Position numbers and translations under genes: made by a program. A DNA stretch of 46,107 nucleotides from Pirellula staleyi DSM 6068 (GTDB lineage Bacteria > Planctomycetota > Planctomycetia > Pirellulales > Pirellulaceae), in contig CAMBSL010000011.1 in assembly GCA_945870455.1 (NCBI GenBank), positions 1 to 46,107 of the forward strand. The letters are read 5' to 3'. Below, one piece after another: positions 401-11,875 of the stretch. Below the pieces are notes generated by a model, which saw only the letters and a program-made list of their open reading frames with translations, did not search any database and was not told the DNA's origin. Within the stretch, counting starts at the first letter, position 1. Every line of letters begins with the position of its first letter.

Positions 401-1225
401 CTACGTTGCTTGTTGTAAACGACGCTTGCGGGCGAACCGGCCTCCGACAGCAAAACACGCAAGTCCAATGGCAAACACCGAAGTTGGCTCAGGACACACA
501 GCTCCATTTTGGAAGGCATTGACGTCCATGGTATCGTGGTGATCGTCTTGGCCATGGCTGCCATGGCCGGTGTAGAAATCATTCACGTGGTCGGAACCAT
601 TCAAATGATTATTCACACCGTCAATCAAAACGCAGTTGAATAGTGGAACATGTCCCCACGTCCCTGCTCCTATAAGCGAAAAGCTTATGACGGATGACTT
701 TATACCCGAAGTGACCCCTTCGAGCTGGAATGTGAAGTTTAAAAGGGAATCAAATGTTCCACCTTCTGCTAGTGGGCTCAGGTTAGCTACACTATTGTGA
801 ATTGTCATCGTGCTGCCAGTGTCAACTAGGTTAACCGTCTTGACATATTCGTTCGCGATCCCGCCAAACCCACTCCAATTGATTTGATTTTGACTCCGGA
901 GGGACAGGGCAACCATTGCTAGATTAATGGTTTGGGAGGCACCATCGGCCAGGTTGGTGACAGGGCCAAGGCGGTGCAAAATAGTGTCGGTGGCACCAGT
1001 GTTTTTAGGTCCCGCTCCGAAATTGTATGTGCCCAAAGGCACGCCAACGAACGGCGTAACGCCAAGCCCCCCTGCCCCTTGAAAATCAAACGAAGACGCT
1101 GTAGTCACTAGGAGATCATACCCGGACATTATATTGACAAAACCTCCGCTTGCAGAAGACGGGTGCAATACCAGCCCCATTGTGATCATCAAACCACAGA
1201 TTAAATTCGACAGCCTCGATAACAT
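401..1225 (-). CDS. PEP-CTERM-type exported protein
   Basis: A predicted secreted protein of 274 residues. The N-terminus (MLSRLSNLICGLMITMGL) is a signal peptide ending near ASG. The C-terminus has the tripartite PEP-CTERM arrangement: a CPEPTS motif, a hydrophobic helix (FAIGLACFAVGG) and a basic tail (RFARKRRLQQ). In this class the tail directs processing by an exosortase and delivery to the cell surface or extracellular matrix. The body is Gly/Ser/Thr/Asn-rich and beta-like, with a His/Asp-rich patch (HGSHGQDDHHD) shortly before the sorting signal. The start at 1225 is chosen because AAGGA lies 7 bases upstream; an upstream extension to 1285 adds a charged stretch that would spoil the signal peptide. 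It lies 124 bp downstream of the thioesterase gene on the same strand, so it may be the last gene of that operon or separate. Its molecular role is unknown. Confidence 0.8.
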   Translation of the reverse strand: MLSRLSNLICGLMITMGLVLHPSSASGGFVNIMSGYDLLVTTASSFDFQGAGGLGVTPFVGVPLGTYNFGAGPKNTGATDTILHRLGPVTNLADGASQTINLAMVALSLRSQNQINWSGFGGIANEYVKTVNLVDTGSTMTIHNSVANLSPLAEGGTFDSLLNFTFQLEGVTSGIKSSVISFSLIGAGTWGHVPLFNCVLIDGVNNHLNGSDHVNDFYTGHGSHGQDDHHDTMDVNAFQNGAVCPEPTSVFAIGLACFAVGGRFARKRRLQQAT

Positions 1226-1349
1226 AACATTGTCCTTTTTCCGAGAGAAAAAACCAAACTGCTTGGGTGTCCATTCCAGTCCCACGTCATCCTGACATCA
1301 ACGTGAGTCATAACGGACTCACAATTGTTTTTTGTTGGCCCTAGCTGGC

Positions 1350-2222
1350 CTATCTCAAATCGTCCTGGTGAGCGAATTCAATGATGTTTTCAATTTTGTC
1401 TAACATTCGCTTGGAGTCGGTAAACGATTGCAGAGCCAGCAACATGTCCGTTGGAAGTGGGCAGGGAACAATTCCCAATCCAACATAACGTTTGCTGCTC
1501 ATTCGCTGATGGCCCGTCGCGAAGGCTACTTGCTCGTTCTCGGACATCGCAAAATAGTCAAAGCGCACGCCGAGTTGCCCACACTTGATCTCGTCAAGCC
1601 GCATCTCGATACGCACCTCGTCCAAGAGGGGCGGAGTCTGATGAAGCTCCACGGAGGCAGATGTTGTTTGAAGGGCAAGCTGCCGATTTGCGACTCGACC
1701 GAGCGACTCAGGGACATGGTCCTCCAGAAACAGTTCGCGACACTTTCCTTGCCAGGCGAAGAGATCGAGTGGATTCAGAACGGATATTCGGGGGCACACG
1801 GTTGTGAACTCGTAAAAGGGTCCACTCGGCGACTCATTGTGAGCATGACTATAAGCCGGTGAAGTCTGAAAACGCATGCTGCCCTTGCCGATCGTCTCTG
1901 CCCCTTTCTCGGTGATTCTCTCGATCGTGGCGGAAGCTGAGTATTGGTGCTCATTCTCATCGAATTCCATCGACACACACACATCGTCGCCAATCGTCGC
2001 CCCAACAGGGTCATCGAAACGTGTCGACCAATGAGTGACGCTCAAAGGCGATTCACCTCGGCGGATGGAGTGCCAAAGTTCGGGATCGTTTTCTCGGAGC
2101 CACTGGTCGCGGCATTCCGCTTGCCAGCGAAAAAACGTAAGGAAATAGACGTTTCCAACGACATTCGTATCTTGAAACGTGATTCGTGGTCGGTAGGACG
2201 TTTGCGTTAGGGTTTTCTGCAT
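1350..2222 (-). CDS. Enediyne-type hotdog thioesterase, tandem domains (TebC/CalE7-like)
   Basis: About 290 residues with two hotdog-fold domains. The first (about 1-125) has the signature of enediyne-cluster thioesterases: FQDTNVVGNVYFLTFFRW followed by QAECRDQWL. The second (about 140-290) repeats a shorter version, LDLFAWQGKCRELFLEDHVP. The Trp-Gln-x-x-Cys-Arg-Asp/Glu element, whose Arg is the key active-site residue proposed for CalE7/DynE7, is thus present twice. Known members release linear polyene or beta-keto acyl chains from an iterative polyketide synthase and are about 150 residues with one domain; the doubled length is unusual. It is the fourth gene of the minus-strand unb operon, just after unbU. 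I chose ATG at 2222 (GGA 6 bases upstream); an ATG at 2252, 4 bases after the unbU stop, is possible. The substrate is unknown because no PKSE is seen nearby. Confidence 0.8.
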   Translation of the reverse strand: MQKTLTQTSYRPRITFQDTNVVGNVYFLTFFRWQAECRDQWLRENDPELWHSIRRGESPLSVTHWSTRFDDPVGATIGDDVCVSMEFDENEHQYSASATIERITEKGAETIGKGSMRFQTSPAYSHAHNESPSGPFYEFTTVCPRISVLNPLDLFAWQGKCRELFLEDHVPESLGRVANRQLALQTTSASVELHQTPPLLDEVRIEMRLDEIKCGQLGVRFDYFAMSENEQVAFATGHQRMSSKRYVGLGIVPCPLPTDMLLALQSFTDSKRMLDKIENIIEFAHQDDLR

Positions 2223-2255
2223 GATTGTTCCGGGGGCTATGAGCAATGGCATGTA

Positions 2256-3299
2256 CTAAGCTCGGACTTCCTCGAGCACTGCGATTTTCTCGACAACGGG
2301 AGAAGCAGGCCTCGCCCCAGCGATGGAAACGCGGGTGATCGGTTGGCTCTTTGTTTTCGCTTTGCTTATCGCGCTTGCAATGGCGATGCATAATCCGCGA
2401 ACGGCACACACCGCAATCAGAGCCAGGAAGAGTCCAAAGACGATGTGAAAAAGTTGCAGCGCCGCATAAACGATGGCAACACTGACACCGAATGCGATTT
2501 GACGGCCTTTCACGATGGGTGTGGTAGCCGGATCTGGAATCATGTAAAGCGTGAACAGGATAAAGCCAGCGCTCGACATGGGCATGAGCGGCACATACCA
2601 TGAGTTGCCAGCTAGCCACGCTCGAAAAACACCCTGGACTACGAATCCCAACAGCCAGGCGATGCATAACGTCAAACGCCCAGTTGCAAATCCATGAACA
2701 ACGATGCCGCTGGCCAAGATTGCGGCTGGTAACGCCCAATGCCAGAAACCTGTAATGTTCTCGGTAAATTGATAGGGCGGCGCCTACCCCACGTCCGAAA
2801 ACAGAAGCAACGTCACAACAATTCCAAAATTGGATGGATTGAGAAAATGGGTTAGGGAACCGTTGCTGAGCCTGATGCGAAACAACACTTTGGACGCGAT
2901 CGAAAGGACGGAGGCAAAGATGATTGGTCCCAAACGCTCGTTGGGAAAGAGCAGCATGGCACAGGCGAATCCGGAGATCATGGCCGGGGGCAGAAAGTTG
3001 ACAAAGCTCAACCAAGAGCCGCTGAATCGAGGTTTGCGACCGAGCGAGCGAGCGTCAACCCATTCGAGCACGATCTGTGCTAAACAAGCGGAAAGAACAG
3101 CCACGAAAGGCATCGCCCATGATTGCTCAAACCCAAGAAAGGTGTGCCCAGCAATGTTCCAGGCAATCATCAAAATTGCAAAGTACCAGAGCGCAAACAA
3201 TCGTAGATGCGCATTGCGATTTGGGTACAGCGATACGGTGGCATTGACCGATACTGTGGGATTGCTTGATGTTTGAATCGTGTTAGATGCTTGAATCAT
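2256..3299 (-). pseudogene. unbU: UnbU-like membrane protein interrupted by one in-frame TAG
   Basis: A multispanning membrane protein of the UnbU (RnfD-related) family found in the enediyne cassette; its biochemical function is not established. Translation from ATG 3299 gives about 170 residues with several hydrophobic helices and the family-like run HFLNPSNFGIVVTLLLFSDVG, then a TAG at 2784-2786. Reading on in the same frame gives APPYQFTENITGFWHWALP and the remaining helices down to the TAG at 2256-2258, so only one codon separates the halves and no bases are lost. The whole frame is 347 codons, a normal full length. It starts 9 bp after the unbV stop. Possibilities are a recent nonsense mutation, a sequencing error or suppression of the stop. 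Neighbouring unbV and the thioesterase also end in TAG, which argues against general TAG reassignment. Confidence 0.75.
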
Positions 3300-3307
3300 G
3301 TACGAAC

Positions 3308-5404
3308 CTATTTGCTTGAAGTACCGAGCAAGATTGTGTGACGACCTGGGGCTATAGAAACGGTTCGCGAGACCAAGTGTCCTTTTCTGGTTCTCCATCG
3401 AAGCTCAACATCGATGGTCGCGTTTGGATATTCACCTAGACCAAAATGAATTTCTTGTGAGCTATGTCCCGAATGGCCGACGCCCGATAGGACTTCGGCC
3501 ACAGAAACCAGTCCCGTTCGTTGGGCAGTTCCTGAGACGGGATTCGTCTTCGGTTCACGCTTAATCGTGGCCGTTGCTCCAATGGCAAAGCTACCTACTG
3601 ACTCTGCACTTGGATCGATCTCGAAAGGAATTTCGTCATCCAGAGGAAGCACAAGCCGCAGTGAAAGTGATTTGTTATGGTTTGCGATGGAGTTGCGAAA
3701 GAAAACCGAAGGTTCCCACTGATTCGCATAAACGAAGTCCAACGAACCGTTTCCATCGGTATCGGCGACGGCGATCCCCCTGGTATTAAACGGATCTCCC
3801 ATGCCAATGTCGGCGGAGATGTCTACGTATCGACCTGAAGCCGACGAAACATAGATCGGGTTATTGTCGTAACCGCTTAGGGTCGCCGTAGGACTCTGTA
3901 TTTTAGGCCAAGCCCGTGGGTCGTGGATAAGTCGATCGTTTGTCGTCCCAACGGCTTGCAGTTCTGCCCAACGGTTGATGCCGTGTTGAAGAAATCCGGC
4001 CGAGAACAAGGTGCGGTCAATCCATGACAGCTTGGAATCTTTCGTAACAACTCCCTTGGCAAACCCAGTTGCCTGGATCGCTTCGAGTCGTCCATCATTA
4101 TCAAGATCCACCAGGACGGCATCCCAACCCCAACCACTCCGCGAGAGTCCGTACGGTTCGCTCTTTTGCTCATAAGGTGCACGGTTGTGTTTAAAATCAT
4201 CAATATTTCCGGTGCTAACCCACAGAAAATGACTCTCTTGGAGGGCCCATTCGTCGGCAATATTGCTGACAAAGATGTCGAGCAAACCGTCGCCGTTGAC
4301 ATCACCGAAACCAACTCCCATACCCTTGAATGAGTCCCGGCCCAATACAAAGGATCGAGGAGTGGTGAATGTACGAACTCCTTCGCATAGTCCGAACTCC
4401 AAGTGTCCGGGCTGGGATCGATTATGCAGAAGCCGATCGGGACCAAAGTCGTGACCGATATACAACTCTGGCAACCCGTCACGATCGAGATCGGCAGCTC
4501 CGGCGGCCAGGACCCAACCCTTGCCACAATGCTTTTCAAGGACAGAGCTTTGGTCTGCGTACACAACCGTCGGTTGATTGCCGACGGAGGCGGAAAGCCA
4601 GCGGAACAGCTTGGCTCCACCACCGTTCTTCGCTCGGGATTTGCCTTCGTGCATCACCGTTGCAATGCCCGTACCATGTTCGTTCAGGATGTCGGCCCCA
4701 TCTTGAAAGAAATTGCCGATCATCAAATCGAGGTGGCCATCGCCATCGAAATCGGCTTGAGTAGCCGCGTGTGTGTACCATCGACCGGCGCTCGTGCCGA
4801 CGAGCTCAGGTACAAGTTCTATCGGAGTAAATTGCGATGACGCAAGCTGGCTGGCCTGTGTCTGATGCGTGTGCTTTAGAAAAAGCACTGGCGTGCGTCC
4901 CCAAAAGTAAACCAATACATCCGCTTGCCCATCTTCGTTGAAGTCACCAACGAGCGAGCCTGTGGGTGACATCGTATTTGGATTCATCGGAAGATCACGA
5001 ACATCCAGTGCAAAGGCTTCGTATCGTGCTTTGCTATGGACTTCATCGCCGGGTACCGGCATGACAACAATGCGATCGACCCGTGTGTCGACCAAGATCA
5101 AGTCGTTATCTAATCCGTCAAGATCGAGATCGCAAAGAGTGGCAGCGGCGCCTGTTCCACTTATCCACGCCGAAATGCGGTCTAAGCTCGGATGAGCCGC
5201 TCGCTTGGCTTTCAAACCGTTGAGAGCAAAATCTTCGACACCCAGGTTGAAACGGTCAAAGTGCAGTTTGGATGCCAGTTCTTTGCGCTCACCCTGGCTG
5301 ATTGAGGGTTGGCGGGCAAAGAAGTAACACGTTGCCACCAAGACGAAACCCAAAAATTGAACGCGGCGGTTTGTTGCCATGGTTTTTGACATAATATTGC
5401 TCAT
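3308..5404 (-). CDS. unbV: UnbV-like FG-GAP / ASPIC-UnbV domain protein
   Basis: A 698-residue protein with an N-terminal membrane anchor or signal (VQFLGFVLVATCYFFA). It is followed by at least seven FG-GAP-type calcium-binding loops of the DxDxDG pattern, including DLDLDGLDND, DFNEDGQADV, DFDGDGHLDL, DVNGDGLLDI, DLDNDGRLEA and DTDGNGSLDF. These suggest a beta-propeller outside the cytoplasm. The last 110 residues match the ASPIC/UnbV C-terminal domain (GSFAIGATATIKRE, then SGHSSQEIHFGLGEYP and a VELRWR strand). UnbV is one of the conserved enediyne-cassette proteins; its exact role is unknown. The start at 5404 is chosen because the ATG overlaps the unbL TGA (ATGA) and is preceded by AGGTGA; this implies translational coupling. 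Related ASPIC proteins also occur outside enediyne clusters, but the unbL and unbU neighbours make the assignment firm. Confidence 0.88.
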   Translation of the reverse strand: MSNIMSKTMATNRRVQFLGFVLVATCYFFARQPSISQGERKELASKLHFDRFNLGVEDFALNGLKAKRAAHPSLDRISAWISGTGAAATLCDLDLDGLDNDLILVDTRVDRIVVMPVPGDEVHSKARYEAFALDVRDLPMNPNTMSPTGSLVGDFNEDGQADVLVYFWGRTPVLFLKHTHQTQASQLASSQFTPIELVPELVGTSAGRWYTHAATQADFDGDGHLDLMIGNFFQDGADILNEHGTGIATVMHEGKSRAKNGGGAKLFRWLSASVGNQPTVVYADQSSVLEKHCGKGWVLAAGAADLDRDGLPELYIGHDFGPDRLLHNRSQPGHLEFGLCEGVRTFTTPRSFVLGRDSFKGMGVGFGDVNGDGLLDIFVSNIADEWALQESHFLWVSTGNIDDFKHNRAPYEQKSEPYGLSRSGWGWDAVLVDLDNDGRLEAIQATGFAKGVVTKDSKLSWIDRTLFSAGFLQHGINRWAELQAVGTTNDRLIHDPRAWPKIQSPTATLSGYDNNPIYVSSASGRYVDISADIGMGDPFNTRGIAVADTDGNGSLDFVYANQWEPSVFFRNSIANHNKSLSLRLVLPLDDEIPFEIDPSAESVGSFAIGATATIKREPKTNPVSGTAQRTGLVSVAEVLSGVGHSGHSSQEIHFGLGEYPNATIDVELRWRTRKGHLVSRTVSIAPGRHTILLGTSSK

Positions 5405-6354
5405 GTTGTCACCTGGCTTCTTAAGGACTCTCGAATATTCGATCGCCAAGTTTCATAGTCAGAATGCTTACATGGAAACGTTGGTTTGGCTGTGCGAGTC
5501 AGTTCAGCGGCGTCGGAAGCCGACATGCCGCAAACGATTCTGCATATGCGCTCGGTATGTTCCGCCTGTATGTCGGCGAGCTCTCTGGCTTCGGCGCCAA
5601 AGGTAACGCCCTGGGCTAGATAGTCTCGATGGTTACCGCTCGCTTCGACCAAGGATTCGATCTCGTCGCAACTCGCATCTCCCGCGTAGGAAGCGGCAAG
5701 CCCGATTCCGCTCCAAAAATCAGGACGACGCGATGGATGCAGAGACTCGATTACCGATGCGATTTTGGCTACATCTGCTCCTTTGACAAACCACAGGCTG
5801 CGTCCAAGCCCCTGATCGAAAACTCGCTTTCCTTGGTCGCTCCAAGAAGGTTGAAGGTTGGATGACGAAAGCCATTTCTTCCAGTTGAAAAAGCCTTCAT
5901 GAAAGCCGTAACCGTCGAGTACAAGCCATTTCAGTAGAGGGTCGAAGCGATCCATGTATTTCTCGGGATTTCGTCGATACCATGGAATTCTCGCGTACGC
6001 CCAACCAAGCCCCACATGCACTACATAACGATGTGGAGCACCCACGCCGTCAAGAAACTGTTGCCACTGGTTTCGCTTTCTCAGCGAGAGCGAATCGGTT
6101 ATCGCAAATGCCATTGCCGCACCTTCGAATACAAACCCCTGATAGGTTGGGTCACCATTCGCAATCGAAGTACCATGCAAAAAAACGGATGCATCATCGA
6201 GAGCTAGATGGTAGCCAAATAGGAATGATCTACCTATTTCTTCTAGATGAGGCTGCAAACTCGATGGCTCAAACCCACGCCTTGCGAAAGACACTTCCGT
6301 GTCGCTAATGCGCAAGAGCAAATTCCTAACGACCTTGGGGATCAACTGAATCAT
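5401..6354 (-). CDS. unbL: UnbL-like DUF1702 protein
   Basis: A 317-residue protein with the hallmarks of the DUF1702 (UnbL) family. These are FARRGFEP near residue 20, GRSFLFGYHLAL, the FVFEGAAMAFA run, HVGLGWAYARIPW, the strongly conserved LLKWLVLDGYGFHEGFF, RVFDQGLGRSLWFVKGA, and the YAGDASCDEIESL / YLAQGVTFGA region. The family is part of the enediyne warhead cassette and is needed for warhead maturation in known clusters, but its reaction is undefined. It is the first gene of the operon and overlaps unbV by 4 bp. I chose ATG 6354 because family similarity begins right after it (MIQLIPKVVRNLLLRI) and GAAGG lies 11 bases upstream. A TTG at 6456 would add 34 residues of no family character. 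No PKS gene lies upstream in the following 1.2 kb. Confidence 0.85.
   Translation of the reverse strand: MIQLIPKVVRNLLLRISDTEVSFARRGFEPSSLQPHLEEIGRSFLFGYHLALDDASVFLHGTSIANGDPTYQGFVFEGAAMAFAITDSLSLRKRNQWQQFLDGVGAPHRYVVHVGLGWAYARIPWYRRNPEKYMDRFDPLLKWLVLDGYGFHEGFFNWKKWLSSSNLQPSWSDQGKRVFDQGLGRSLWFVKGADVAKIASVIESLHPSRRPDFWSGIGLAASYAGDASCDEIESLVEASGNHRDYLAQGVTFGAEARELADIQAEHTERICRIVCGMSASDAAELTRTAKPTFPCKHSDYETWRSNIRESLRSQVTT
5409..5414 (-). promoter_or_regulatory. Ribosome binding site for unbV
   Basis: AGGTGA sits 4 bases before the unbV ATG at 5404, inside the 3' end of unbL. Most genes here lack a strong Shine-Dalgarno sequence, so this one decides the start and supports coupled translation with unbL. 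Confidence 0.7.
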
Positions 6355-7168
6355 GAGCTCAAAAACCTTCGCTTGTTGCAAACGTCGTGATGCACTGGGA
6401 TCGCAATTGCCCGATAGGTCGCTGCCAGCGTAGGTTGATGTTCCAAAAAATGGCAATGTCTCCCTAAGCGGACGGTCTTTTGATCACCGTTTGCACAGGC
6501 TTCCCATGCGTTATGTCTTCGATAGCTCTGGCTCTCCGCGCGTCCCAAAGTACCGATCAGGCTGGGACATGAGTGCATAGTACGTGCCAAATAGGGGATA
6601 CACTTGGATCTCTCGACGGCTTGATTGCTTCCGTAAACGGTTTAATCTAGTGGTATTCAACGTGCACACTGGCAAACTATTATTTAGGTGGTGAGTCAGG
6701 CACTACCTTTGGTGGCTGGCCATGTGAGCAATTGCGAGCCCTATCGTTACGTATTGACCGTGCGTGTCACATGCATGTCACAGAAGCGCACACCAGCGAG
6801 CTCCACCCACATCGAACTAAAAACAAGACATCTTGGTGGCATGAAAAGCGATGACCACCTTGGGAGGATCGACAGTTGGTTCGAGCGAGATAGAATCATG
6901 CGACGCGGCAAACATCCTAGTGCCAATGATTGGAATGAACGTCGCACAGGAGGGCGTCGATCATAACTTAGGCAGTCAGGTCGGCTAGCATAGTCAGACG
7001 GTGCGACGAGCGCCGGCCTCGATTAGCCACAAAGCATAACAAATCCCCAGGGCAAGCCTGGGGTATTTCGAATCCCGACGGTCTTGTGCGGCGGTTCGTT
7101 CAGGTTTTTAGGCTAAACCGCACGATGAGCGGCGGCCTTGTTATGATCGATGCCCACTGGAGCCTACT

Positions 7169-7193
7169 CGTTCCCAGGCTCTGCCTGGGAACG
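7169..7193. repeat. Perfect 11-bp stem hairpin
   Basis: CGTTCCCAGGC (7169-7179) is followed by a TCT loop and its exact complement (7183-7193). A diverged relative, TTACCAGAC...GCCTGGTAA, lies at about 7274-7302. This looks like a dispersed intergenic hairpin element rather than a terminator, since no T-run follows. Confidence 0.7.
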
Positions 7194-7398
7194 CATTGGT
7201 GTGGAGGCTCCTGCCTCCCGAGTTCACAAACAAAGAATGCATTTCGGCGAGGCAGAGCCACGATTGCATTGCGTTACCAGACAGAGCCGCAGAGCCTGGT
7301 AACTAGATCGCACAGTGCAACAAAACTTGCAATCCGTGTCACTAGTCTCGGGGTCGCGCTGCGCATCCCGAAAACATTCTTAGCCTTCCGTTCGGGCA

Positions 7399-7518
7399 TG
7401 CGGGCTGTTGATTTAGTGGTATGACGGACTTCCTAGTCCGTCGAATTCCCCATTGACCGACTAGGAAGTCCGTCGTACCGCCCATACCCAATAACGACTT
7501 CATTAACTCAACAGCCCG
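7399..7518. repeat. Nested inverted-repeat element (120 bp)
   Basis: The outer arms GCGGGCTGTTGA (7399-7410) and TCAACAGCCCGC (7507-7518) are perfect complements. Inside, a 21-bp arm at 7417-7437 (with GACGGACTTCCTAGTC) pairs with 7458-7478 with a single mismatch. The whole can fold as one two-tier hairpin. It resembles a non-autonomous mobile intergenic repeat. Confidence 0.8.
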
Positions 7519-7586
7519 CTTGTCCCGACGAAGGCAACAATTGGCCGCTACAGGCGTTGGATGAAGGCCAGTTACTCGCGAAAGCC

Positions 7587-8435
7587 CTATTGCTCTTTTT
7601 TCTTGGTGACCAAGTATTTCATGATGCTTTCCGGAACTTTTTCGCTCAGATGCTTGGGCTCTTTGGATTTGTCGGCGTCTCCGCTGTAGGGGGCTTCATC
7701 CGTCAGCGAGAGAACTAAACGAATCGGCGTGTTTCGCTTAGGAATTCGATCGGTAAAAGCTTCAAACATCAAGTTGGCGTTGGACTGATCGCTTTGAACT
7801 GCCAAATCCAACGTCGACGTTGAGAAGTTGGAGACCGAGATCAATTCCCCACTATCTCCCAAATAGTGTTCTTTCCCGTCTTCATCTTTGTAGATCTTGC
7901 TGCCTGCAAATACCCAATCCCATGGCATGGATTTCTTGGTGTCGACTCGACGAATCCAGTTTTGTGCTAGCGTGCCTTGAGCTTTGTTTTCTTTGTCCAG
8001 CCATAAAGCATAGATACGCACAGTTGTTCCACTCGCTGGCTTGAATGGTTCGAACGAAGCGGGACTACCCGGCTTTGCGTTGATCGCAAGCAAGCCTGCG
8101 TGCACCAATTGCGGCCTTGCAAGAACAGCTACGACAGCTTCGTGTTCTTTGCTACCGGCCGGGCAGGCAAACAATTCCAGTGGCACTTCTCGCTGCACAA
8201 TGTATCCGTCCAGTATGACCACTTGTTCGTCTCGATTTATCCATATTCGGTTCTCGCGGTGAAGTGCTTTGCAGTCCTTTGGTTCTTCAAATGTGTCTGC
8301 AATTCGTTTCTTAAGCAAAGCTGGGTTAAGCCAGGTGTCGTCGTCGGCTCGACCAACGGAGGTCAAGCCGATCGACAACAAGAGAATGGTAAAAATCGTC
8401 AAGACGTGTTGAAGTGTGGATCGGAAATGGTTCAT
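7587..8435 (-). CDS. YdjY-domain secreted protein
   Basis: A 282-residue predicted exported protein. The start at 8435 gives a clean signal peptide (MNHFRSTLQHVLTIFTILLL ... SVGRAD) and has AGGAAA 11 bases upstream; the extension to 8537 is rejected. The central part matches the YdjY family: VPLELFACPAGSKEHEAVV, then LVHAGLLAINAKPGSPASF and GTTVRIYALWLD. YdjY proteins are thought to be periplasmic and are often found near electron-transfer proteins, but no reaction is established. The C-terminus ends in a lysine-rich tail. It is divergently oriented from the next gene, with a 228-bp gap that probably holds both promoters. The family assignment is good; the function is unknown. Confidence 0.75.
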   Translation of the reverse strand: MNHFRSTLQHVLTIFTILLLSIGLTSVGRADDDTWLNPALLKKRIADTFEEPKDCKALHRENRIWINRDEQVVILDGYIVQREVPLELFACPAGSKEHEAVVAVLARPQLVHAGLLAINAKPGSPASFEPFKPASGTTVRIYALWLDKENKAQGTLAQNWIRRVDTKKSMPWDWVFAGSKIYKDEDGKEHYLGDSGELISVSNFSTSTLDLAVQSDQSNANLMFEAFTDRIPKRNTPIRLVLSLTDEAPYSGDADKSKEPKHLSEKVPESIMKYLVTKKKEQ

Positions 8436-8663
8436 GGGTTCGTAATTTCCTGTGCTGATGTTGAGCCGACGAACACGGTAAATGTCCATACCCAAAATGG
8501 GAATTTTTAAAAATGAAAAAGTGTTCGCAAGAAACATGTTTTAAGCGCTTGCATCTTGAAAAGTTGGAACAACAATTGGCCTTCGGTCACTGTGCGCTGA
8601 ATTTCGACATGCGCAACCGCGACCCTAATCATATCATTAATCGCAAACGTGGACGAGAGACCT

Positions 8664-10610
8664 ATGGACTGGGTTAAGCCCAAACATCGCGCCCGGCAAA
8701 CAAGCAAAGCGGACGCTTCTGAATCGCAAGTAACCGCGAGCACATGGCTAAAACAGTTGTGCGAAGAAAACGTCGCGATGCTTCAGTCATCGCTTCCAGT
8801 TCGAGAATCGCAGGGCAAAACCAAAGCAGCCAAGGTTTTACCCGACGCTTATCTCAGAGCCATGCTGTGGGGAACTGGCGTTTGGGAAGTCGAAAGCCAT
8901 AGTCATCCCGAGTTTCTCAATGATTTGGTAGAGGCGTTTGGCATTGCGTCAACGGCTGCTCCTGCGAATCGAAAAGGTTCGAAAAACAAGTTGAGCAATA
9001 GTGGGAAATCTTCGAAAGTCCTTGCCGCAACGGCGGACCAAATTGCGGCTGCGTCCAAAATAGGCAAGTGGATATCTCAACAATTGCCCAAATCTGGGCA
9101 CGATCCCTATGTTGCTCTCGTTTGCGCTGGGTGGATCCATGCTCTTGCGGATGTTGGCAGGAGCATTTCGCCATCGCTTTGGCTGGAAGTTTTGCAATGC
9201 GCGCTGACGCAAGTGGATCGGGCTTGGGAGCAAGGCCCGACGGACGGTTTATTTCCATGGATTGTCTGGTCATGCGAAGTGCCTCTCGCCCTCGCGAAGC
9301 AACTTTCGCATCTCGGCGGTAAAGACCGCATCGTTAGCGAAACACTCAATCGAATCGCTTTGCTGTTAGAGGAATCCTCAGACGACCCACGTGGCTTCCT
9401 GGTACGGGGTGGACAAGATCTTCGTTCGCTTCTTGCCTGTATCATGCGATGTCGATGGTCTGCCGATGAAGTTGGAGCTCGCAAGTGGTACCCGCCACAG
9501 CGAAAGGCAATTGGAAAACTCGCCATCGCGGCGCTCGCCCTATGCGATGTCGAGGGCCGACAGTTGTTGTTCGATCGCGAGGATACCACGCTAGATGAGC
9601 AATTTTGGATCGAACTCAATCAATTGGCAGGTGAGAACAAGAAGCTCAGATTAGCAACTTCTTGTGCATTGCCAGACTCCATCGGGAAAACACTCGGAGA
9701 GAAGCCGCCCAAGTTGCGCAAGGACGTAACGAATGACGTGCTGATGCCAAAGCATAGTCAATACTGGGACAAGAACTCGATTGTTACGATGCGACGATCG
9801 TGGCGAGATCGAGGGTGCCGCGTCGCAGTCGATTTCTCAAGCGACGTCGTCTGGTTGGATGTGCTTGGACAAGATGGACAGCGAGTGCTTAGCGGCGACT
9901 GGGATGTCAAGGTGTTTCGAAAGCAGCAGCCTGTGCCGATCGATGTTTCTTGGCAAGAGGTTTGTTGGTTTTCGGATGACGACGTCGACTATTTGGAACT
10001 CGAGTGTGCCGTCGAAGACGTGTGCAAAATCCAGCGACAAGTCATGCTCATGCGAGACGAAGGTGTTGTCTTTTTTGCCGACGCATTGATTGCGGAAAAG
10101 CCCGACGAATGGTCCGTCCAATCGCTATGGACGACTCCTAACGATATCCACCTGCAGTCGGAGCCAAAGACGACCGAGGGCAAATTGGTTCGATCGGGAA
10201 ATCAAGAACAAACCGCAGCATTGCTTTTGCCAGTTGCAATGCCTGAGTGGCGTCGTTCACCGAGCCACGCCAAAATGGGCTTTCATGGTTCAACACTGTT
10301 TTTGCAATGCGATACGCAGTCAAAGAGTCTTTATAGTCCGCTGATCATGTCGTTGCTAGGAAACGAACGGTCGCCAGCGTTCACTTGGCGTCAATTGACA
10401 ATCGCTGAGGAATTGCAAATTCAGCCTCGCAACATTGCAGAAGCATATCGCGTTCAGGTCAATCGCGATCAATGGGTTTTCTATCGTTCACTAACCCCCT
10501 GTACGCGGCGAACGGTTATGGGCCTGCACTTAAATACCGAGTTCTATGCGGGGCGGTTTTCCCGTTCGGATGGTGAATTTGAACCGATCATCGAAGTCAA
10601 TCCTGAGTAA
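8664..10610 (+). CDS. Conserved-looking planctomycete protein of unknown function
   Basis: A 648-residue soluble protein without signal peptide or membrane helices. I do not recognise a catalytic family. The N-terminal third is helical and Ser/Lys/Ala-rich (a linker near residues 95-120). The middle (about 130-330) is alpha-helical and tryptophan-rich. The C-terminal half has beta-rich features and tryptophans (VSWQEVCWFSDDDVDYLELE, then VFFADALIAEKPDEWS and LLPVAMPEWRRS). That region loosely recalls the beta-sandwich C-terminal domain of heparinase II/III-like proteins, which is only a guess. I start at ATG 8664; a GTG at 8649 in the same frame is possible. The gene converges with the next one, stops 4 bp apart. 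Base composition is like its neighbours. Confidence 0.65.
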   Translation: MDWVKPKHRARQTSKADASESQVTASTWLKQLCEENVAMLQSSLPVRESQGKTKAAKVLPDAYLRAMLWGTGVWEVESHSHPEFLNDLVEAFGIASTAAPANRKGSKNKLSNSGKSSKVLAATADQIAAASKIGKWISQQLPKSGHDPYVALVCAGWIHALADVGRSISPSLWLEVLQCALTQVDRAWEQGPTDGLFPWIVWSCEVPLALAKQLSHLGGKDRIVSETLNRIALLLEESSDDPRGFLVRGGQDLRSLLACIMRCRWSADEVGARKWYPPQRKAIGKLAIAALALCDVEGRQLLFDREDTTLDEQFWIELNQLAGENKKLRLATSCALPDSIGKTLGEKPPKLRKDVTNDVLMPKHSQYWDKNSIVTMRRSWRDRGCRVAVDFSSDVVWLDVLGQDGQRVLSGDWDVKVFRKQQPVPIDVSWQEVCWFSDDDVDYLELECAVEDVCKIQRQVMLMRDEGVVFFADALIAEKPDEWSVQSLWTTPNDIHLQSEPKTTEGKLVRSGNQEQTAALLLPVAMPEWRRSPSHAKMGFHGSTLFLQCDTQSKSLYSPLIMSLLGNERSPAFTWRQLTIAEELQIQPRNIAEAYRVQVNRDQWVFYRSLTPCTRRTVMGLHLNTEFYAGRFSRSDGEFEPIIEVNPE

Positions 10611-10614
10611 CCAA

Positions 10615-11601
10615 TTATTCCATTTCGAATTGAATTGAAATTGCGACTGGAAGAGTATGGTTGCTTGCATCTTCTTGGATAGACTCACGAGAGTCCCGGC
10701 GGGCATTGCCAACCACCAATTGTCCGTTTGGACCGATCTCAACGTTTCTCAACGTACTCGGTGGTTGCAAAAATGATGAAGACGAGATGGAGCGAACGCC
10801 CGCAACGCGTTTCCCCATGGCTCGCGCCAACATCGCGGCTTGCGTTTGCCCCTTCTTGAACGCTTGTTTCATGGCGTCTTCCTCTTGAGCTTCCGATAAA
10901 CGTGCAACATAAACCAATTGAATTTCTGGGACTCGATTGGAACTTGAGTAACTAAAATTCCCCGTCAAAGGCAAAATCAATTGTTGCTCCTCTGGATTCA
11001 GAACAACCTTGTGACTCTTGCCTTTGAAATCGTTCTGTTGAATCGCCGAGCGAATCGTGGACGGTAGCAGTAGATTGGCATCATCGGAATTCTCGTCGAG
11101 AGCCCACTCGGCAGTCAGTTTGGATGAGGCCGTGTATATGCTGGGAAGTTCCGCTTCTTCGTCCGTATCTAAGGCGGGTAAACGTGCAAGTTGTGGATTG
11201 AGATTTCTCATTTGTGCAGACTGCTGGCGAGCTTGTTTGCGGGCAAATTCGGGATCATCAACACCAGGAATGCCAAAGTTAATCATCGGTTTTGAGAACT
11301 CAACCGAACTAGGGATGGCTCCCAGGCTATTCAATTCGTTTGTTACTCGTTCTTGGTGTTCGTGAAACGTCTGCAGCGCCCTTTTGCTATCGCGACTCTC
11401 CACTTTTACCAACATGGTTAGGCGTAGTTTTGAGGGAACGACTACAACATCTTGCGCAATGGTTACGGAGACCGTGCCTCCCCTGGGCATTTGCGGGTCT
11501 TGTGCCAATACCGGGCAGGGAATGATGCCAAGTAAAGCGAAAAAGCAATTCATTCCTACTTTGCTTAATCTCCGAGTTCGAATCAACTTTGAGAACAACA
11601 T
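10615..11601 (-). CDS. SIMPL (DUF541)-like secreted protein
   Basis: A 328-residue exported protein. The N-terminus is basic and then hydrophobic (SKVGMNCFFALLGIIPCPVLAQ), a signal peptide cleaved near LAQ. The mature protein opens with beta strands typical of the SIMPL/DUF541 family (GTVSVTIAQDVVVVPSKLRLTMLVKVES). Later it carries the family-like helix KGQTQAAMLARAMGKRVAGVRSI and a C-terminal strand LPVAISIQFEME. A Gln-rich insertion (about 125-180) is not typical. SIMPL proteins are periplasmic or outer-membrane associated and of poorly defined function. I chose ATG 11601; an in-frame GTG at 11616 is possible. Confidence in the family is moderate because the central part is divergent. Confidence 0.6.
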   Translation of the reverse strand: MLFSKLIRTRRLSKVGMNCFFALLGIIPCPVLAQDPQMPRGGTVSVTIAQDVVVVPSKLRLTMLVKVESRDSKRALQTFHEHQERVTNELNSLGAIPSSVEFSKPMINFGIPGVDDPEFARKQARQQSAQMRNLNPQLARLPALDTDEEAELPSIYTASSKLTAEWALDENSDDANLLLPSTIRSAIQQNDFKGKSHKVVLNPEEQQLILPLTGNFSYSSSNRVPEIQLVYVARLSEAQEEDAMKQAFKKGQTQAAMLARAMGKRVAGVRSISSSSFLQPPSTLRNVEIGPNGQLVVGNARRDSRESIQEDASNHTLPVAISIQFEME

Positions 11602-11875
11602 GATAGAGCTACTCACTTACAAGCAATTTTCATCAACCCTAAACGAAGCCATGATTCTAGCAGGATTTGATCACCTATGTGAGGAGTTGTCGAAAGTGGT
11701 CGGAAGTGTTTGCCTGCGGAATGAATTCGAGCGACAATTCACTCTTACTTCGTGATATTATTATGGTCCTACCGCGTACCATTCACCGTCTTACCCTATT
11801 CGTTCGAGGCGCAGGTTGATAACTCCATTGGATCAATTGGATCATTCGGTTAGAACATCGACAGTTCGACGAGCA

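Follow-up and report, generated by a model that had tools for sequence, protein, structure and literature searches.

What can an enediyne-type gene cassette do when the polyketide synthase PKSE is no longer found with it? The question is raised by the window analysed here, a stretch of 46,107 nucleotides from Pirellula staleyi DSM 6068 that makes up an entire contig of a fragmented assembly (G000; 386 contigs, 92.5% complete). We take E3 of the enediyne clusters to be UnbL (DUF1702), E4 to be UnbV, E5 to be UnbU and E10 to be the thioesterase (TE). Characterised enediyne clusters share five genes, E3, E4, E5, E and E10 (PMC5181780). Homologues of E3, E4, E5 and E10 form one operon in the window, in the order also found around the PKSE of most of the non-actinobacterial cassettes compared, but no E (PKSE) has been found here or in the clade to which the locus belongs, the TE is a tandem fusion, and a gene for a PEP-CTERM-type protein follows (Table 1). 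Since a PKSE of the KS-AT-ACP-KR-DH type was sought and not found, the locus is regarded as a derivative of the enediyne cassette and not as a member of it, and no enediyne is predicted as its product.

The operon and its gene calls

Table 1. Positions in the window of the four operon genes and of the gene that follows them
Feature	Position	Strand	Basis
unbL (E3-type, DUF1702)	5401..6354	minus	Pfam PF08012
unbV (E4-type, FG-GAP repeats and ASPIC/UnbV domain)	3308..5404	minus	PF13517, PF07593
unbU (E5-type membrane protein), one in-frame stop inside	2256..3299	minus	homology to PKSE-linked UnbU
Tandem (two-half) enediyne-type hot-dog thioesterase (TE), 300 aa	1350..2252	minus	4HBT_2, CalE7/DynE7 matches
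PEP-CTERM-type protein gene	401..1285	minus	family recurs beside enediyne-type cassettes

A first-pass annotation had described a minus-strand operon in the order unbL-unbV-unbU-TE and had placed no PKS in the window. Its coordinates and gene order are right, its four assignments are real (DUF1702, UnbV and TE by Pfam and PDB matches, UnbU by its match to PKSE-linked UnbU), and the contig gave no ketosynthase or PKSE match; the interruption of unbU had been overlooked. Some gene starts can be placed further upstream. For unbL an upstream TTG is possible, with which the gene reaches 6456, and the stretch 5401-6456 (minus) matches DUF1702 in Pfam (PF08012, E 3e-96). In the list of open reading frames unbV starts at 5449, and the frame 3308-5449 (minus) contains FG-GAP repeats and the UnbV_ASPIC domain (Pfam PF07593, E 7e-8); unbV and unbL overlap by 4 bp. 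An earlier start would lengthen unbU to 3398, and the TE gene, matched by 4HBT_2 over 1350-2252 (minus; Pfam, E 4e-7), begins 3 bp past the unbU stop. The next two proteins, encoded at 7587-8537 and 8649-10610, have no Pfam name. In L038, a near relative, the gene after the PEP-CTERM gene encodes 305 aa and was recognised by eye as pyrF; the 10 kb around unbL there contain no PKSE match.

Absence of the PKSE and its usual position

The query used for the PKSE was that of G003 (1876 residues; KS, AT, KR and DH assigned by Pfam, the ACP and C-terminal parts by eye). No PKSE was found in any of the 12 genomes tested, namely the window's own (G000), G392, G393, G610, G335, G695, G742, G724, G669, G750, G475 and G526, the last seven judged on matches listed to E 1e-20. 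The matches obtained in these 12 were 25-42% identical and covered pieces of at most 813 of the 1876 residues, in contrast to G401, G406 and G416, which gave 51-57% identity over nearly the full length. Among the 12, the cassette of G750 leaves its contig and that of G526 is incomplete. The earlier proposal that a PUFA-synthase-like system supplies the substrate was not borne out: none of the six ketosynthase C-domain matches in the own genome lies in a frame longer than 469 aa, two of them are pieces of one gene split by contig ends, and neither a PS-DH match nor, judged by these frames, a PfaA-like multidomain synthase was found.

The position that a PKSE would occupy was examined in UnbL relatives from a contig scan (240 obtained, 80 kept), to which 17 loci were added (the window, L013, L014 and L158-L171) and from which four duplicates were taken out (L162, L073, L166, L165), leaving 93. 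A PKSE match of at least 180 bits is present at 74 of them; that of L116 is only 34% identical, at a locus with no UnbV or UnbU match, so that 73 is the firmer count. The 19 loci with no PKSE match of that strength include some that contig ends may explain (L013, L048, L053, L064, L075, L077, L097 and L163), and for L013 the PKSE is on a different contig. Where both genes occur, the PKSE directly follows unbU in 42 of 70 loci, and the TE comes next after the PKSE in 24 of the 25 of these 42 that have enough room. In the cassettes with a tandem TE, unbU and TE are separated by 2-9 bp or overlap by 4 bp in seven of eight, and by 30 bp in L161. As the PKSE usually sits between unbU and TE, it appears to have been lost from inside the operon. 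The tight packing had been taken in the first-pass annotation as an argument against an internal deletion, which does not hold: the closed junction is the usual site of the PKSE, and a deletion there would be old and clean.

A tree of UnbL plus UnbV (78 of the 93 loci, 950 columns, FastTree, midpoint root) places the eight PKSE-less cassettes with a tandem TE in one clade, with support of 1.0, and of 0.99 and 1.0 for UnbL and UnbV alone; the other 15 loci, including L164, L168 and L171, were left out because UnbL or UnbV was short or absent or because the match contained a stop. The clade consists of the window, L037, L038 and L158 (same genus or Pirellula), L159 and L160, and L161 and L039, and it is nested in a 12-member clade (0.99) with the PKSE-bearing Verrucomicrobia L052, L063 and L099, plus L163. 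On these trees, given one well-supported clade nested among PKSE-bearing cassettes and a shared tandem TE, the loss of the PKSE is judged to be old. Two further PKSE-less loci, L164 and L014, have a single TE; because L014 stands on a separate branch, either there has been more than one loss of the PKSE or the sampling does not give the full picture. The occurrence of the same quartet in related planctomycetes means that one contig edge or one incomplete genome is no explanation, and the view of the locus as an enediyne-type cassette that lacks its PKSE is thus supported across relatives.

DUF1702 is rare, being present in at least 6 of 392 genomes in a sample of the phylum and in at least 15 of 397 in a sample of the class, and patchy, with two of six sampled genomes of the window's genus. 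Searches of the open-access literature showed no paper that deals with a cassette lacking its PKSE or with enediyne cassettes of Planctomycetota. Members of this phylum that have a PKSE together with unbL, unbV, unbU and TE are L050/L166 (Aquisphaera insulae), L168-L170 and contig C161 of G003 (L032), where a TE-like frame comes after the PKSE. At L171 (G526) unbV and unbU are present, the DUF1702 stretch in the genome has only 52 residues and there is no TE or PKSE match nearby; this cassette seems to be in decay.

The retained proteins

The window TE matches CalE7, DynE7 and an 'ACP-polyene thioesterase' in the PDB (E 7e-21 to 5e-17), each over two stretches, which identifies it as a tandem of two halves. 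Both halves align with the CalE7/DynE7 hot-dog thioesterases (PDB 2w3x, 2xem, 2xfl), but the enediyne matches listed are chains of 142-180 aa, whereas the window TE joins two unlike halves in one chain. The tandem TE is common to all eight cassettes of the clade. In an alignment that left out the G003 row and the TE of L164, the motif TN-x-VGNVY is present in the first half and absent from the second in all eight, QGK(C/S)RE is present in all eight second halves, and QG(K/R)CRE is absent from all eight first halves. An arginine aligned to Arg37 of CalE7, which is presumably catalytic, is found in six of the eight first halves and in all eight second halves; as most first halves have retained it, the halves are complementary only in part. 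The distribution of these motifs suggests that the unlike halves form one composite active site.

Most conserved positions of UnbL and UnbV are retained. At a threshold of at least 95% conservation among PKSE-bearing loci, 48-51 of 53 positions in UnbL and 95-106 of 111 in UnbV persist in the eight tandem-TE cassettes, the window UnbV itself keeping 100 of the 111. The latter is 30-48% identical to PKSE-linked UnbV and weakly matches cartilage acidic protein 1 in the PDB (E 1.2e-5); a hydropathy scan gave no clear hydrophobic segment, so its location is a guess. We know of no settled role for UnbL, UnbV or UnbU.

The window's unbU has one in-frame stop, where ORF 2784-3398 ends, and thus consists of two open frames (2784-3398 and 2256-2717, minus), which were analysed separately. 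Elsewhere the gene is intact: for 86 rows of other loci, a count that includes duplicates, the two pieces share one frame. No Pfam model is dedicated to UnbU; the window pieces are 31-64% identical to the unbU of PKSE-bearing cassettes, and each has four hydrophobic windows. A likeness to the NqrB/RnfD membrane subunits (PF03116) comes from NQR2_RnfD_RnfE matches in 10 of 15 intact UnbU relatives (best E 1.7e-10), the other five having none, among the latter the nearest intact UnbU, that of L038; the scores available for single UnbU proteins, however, are under the Pfam cut-off of 27.7 bits (L014 25.0, the window's downstream piece 18.6). Unless this stop reflects an error of assembly, the interruption of unbU may mean that the window's own strain has only recently lost the pathway.

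Comparisons among the window, L037 and L038 gave dN/dS values of 0.17-0.33 for UnbL, 0.19-0.22 for UnbV and 0.125-0.18 for the TE, from which these three proteins are judged to be under purifying selection, and of 0.42-0.51 for the PEP-CTERM protein. Low dN/dS and the retained conserved positions together make the enzymes look kept in the clade. For the upstream piece of unbU the values are 0.06-0.10 between the window and its relatives and 0.02 between L037 and L038; for the downstream piece they are 0.22-0.31 and 0.05 (few changes), as if constraint on this part of the window gene had been relaxed. The window's own unbU may therefore be newly lost.

The PEP-CTERM protein falls slightly short of TIGR02595 (14 bits against a cut-off of 16), and its relative at L038 exceeds it (20 bits). 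A family profile built from only five proteins of the clade matches at the PKSE-bearing Planctomycetota loci L050/L166, L167 and L168 with 126-163 bits and at the cyanobacterial loci L048, L059, L077 and L045 with 44-86 bits; a PKSE match is present at L059 and L045, with none on the stretches seen of L048 and L077. The iterated profile further adds, among others, L057, L112, L115 and L062. Of the 15 class-sample genomes that have DUF1702, 6 encode a member of the family, always within about 1 kb of the cassette, against 6 of the 382 that have no DUF1702, which strengthens the earlier idea of a product placed at the surface (the counts are uncorrected for kinship). At L158, L164 and L163 other PEP-CTERM-like proteins, with tails recognised by eye, are encoded directly upstream of unbL. 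An exosortase is present in 11 of 13 genomes, including the own one (five matches); none was matched in G669 and G335, although G669 nonetheless has a protein of the PEP-CTERM family. The predicted structure of the protein, for which an enediyne apoprotein (chromoprotein) fold was considered, is beta-rich between two terminal helices (pLDDT 71, moderate confidence) and had no strong PDB match. Fold searches gave no functional lead. Two or three adjacent copies of the family gene are seen at L037 (8696-10703), L048, L059, L077 and L115.

A possible changed task and its alternatives

The reading that we favour, and hold to be moderately probable, is that of an enediyne-cassette derivative that has lost its PKSE and has been retained for a changed task, in which a chain supplied in trans would be modified at the membrane and released. 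As the synthase was not found and the releasing enzyme is doubled, the clade probably processes another molecule. A deletion between unbU and TE, old and clean, would have removed the PKSE, and two TE copies would have fused into one protein; we propose that the other genes were retained because they are still functional in some way. An acyl chain, perhaps polyunsaturated, would be carried by a separate carrier protein and would stem from a discrete ketosynthase/ACP pair or from fatty acid synthesis. UnbU, as an NqrB/RnfD-like membrane protein, would alter this chain at the membrane together with UnbV and a soluble, helical UnbL, the tandem TE would free it, probably through one composite active site of its unlike halves, and the PEP-CTERM protein would hold or display the hydrophobic product at the surface. 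From the first-pass interpretation the enediyne-type cassette without PKSE is kept in this proposal, and its argument against a deletion and its PUFA supplier are given up, on account of the usual PKSE site and the short ketosynthase frames.

A hint of supply in trans, though an unspecific one from a single genus, comes from two genomes (G669 and G610), in which genes for a discrete ketosynthase and for a small ACP-like protein stand before the quartet and the PEP-CTERM gene is close by; the ACP was identified by Pfam in L162 and by homology in L161. Orthologues of this pair lie elsewhere in Pirellula genomes. An orthologue of the ketosynthase (at least 55% identity) is found in all 12 tested genomes without DUF1702 and in 23 of 31 genomes overall, so that, being general in relatives, it is regarded just as a candidate supplier. 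The more far-reaching version, a type II enediyne-type pathway of the Planctomycetota in which a stand-alone KS and ACP replace the PKSE and, with a fused pseudo-heterodimeric TE and UnbU, UnbV and UnbL, lead to a new class of unsaturated, surface-held product, is speculative and in our estimate doubtful. In the window's own genome the ketosynthase gene is split by a contig break, with the ACP gene behind it (contigs C383 and C100; L018, L019).

The strongest competitor to retention for a changed task, unlikely as it seems, is decay: after the loss of the PKSE the rest would be drifting, and the stop in the window unbU would be the next step. This stop, the raised dN/dS of the downstream piece, the patchy presence of DUF1702 and the mere DUF1702 remnant of G526 all fit such a course, but dN/dS is well below 1 for unbL, unbV and TE, the other seven tandem-TE cassettes have all four proteins in open frames, and the derived tandem TE has been retained across two families. 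It is improbable that some other large synthase encoded in the genome (a modular PKS, an NRPS or a PUFA synthase) makes the product on which the quartet acts. Other large PKS frames do occur in G695, G724, G669, G610, G475, G526 and G335; in the own genome, G392, G393 and G742, however, the PKSE query matches only frames of up to about 510 aa, so that by this query no large synthase is common to the clade, and the sequence retrieved around the quartet shows none next to it.

That the UnbL/UnbV/UnbU trio is older than the PKSE, and the PKSE-less form ancestral, seems quite improbable. It would agree with G071, where DUF1702 adjoins NRPS genes and UnbV and UnbU are missing, but the PKSE-less cassettes are nested and have a derived tandem TE; as the trees are midpoint-rooted, this case depends on the rooting. 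The least probable of the alternatives, in our judgement very improbable, is a PKSE that was missed because the genomes are incomplete or because it has diverged too far. Contig numbers are stated for six tandem-TE genomes, and these are indeed fragmented (180-470 contigs); the own genome is not complete, and in G003 the PKSE is on a separate short contig, with unbL-unbV-unbU running into a contig edge. Against it stand the lack of a PKSE in all 12 genomes, six of the tandem-TE ones being stated as 87-100% complete, the closed PKSE site in all eight tandem-TE cassettes and, for the own genome, the lack of PS-DH and the presence of short ketosynthase frames only.

A natural cassette that retains UnbL, UnbV and UnbU but has no PKSE sets their activity apart from that of the synthase and allows it to be tested on its own. 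The link of UnbU to NqrB/RnfD and the recurring PEP-CTERM partner point to redox chemistry at the membrane and to a binding protein that is exported, both as parts of non-actinobacterial cassettes.

Some minor observations concern the surroundings. In G071, where DUF1702 (L010, L015, L034) lies beside an NRPS gene with UnbV and UnbU absent, the neighbours also include a gene that weakly matches tryptophan halogenase and one that by eye is efflux-like. Within the window, a 20-bp tandem repeat in six copies occupies positions 1-120 at the contig end and is the likely reason for the assembly break, and an inverted repeat is seen by eye at 7401-7490. Measured against L038, dS is about 0.08-0.21 for the quartet and the gene next to it (1350-8537), but 0.38 and 0.70 for the following two genes (8649-11616) and 0.41 for the PEP-CTERM gene on the other side; the stretch 1350-8537 is possibly a recombined segment.
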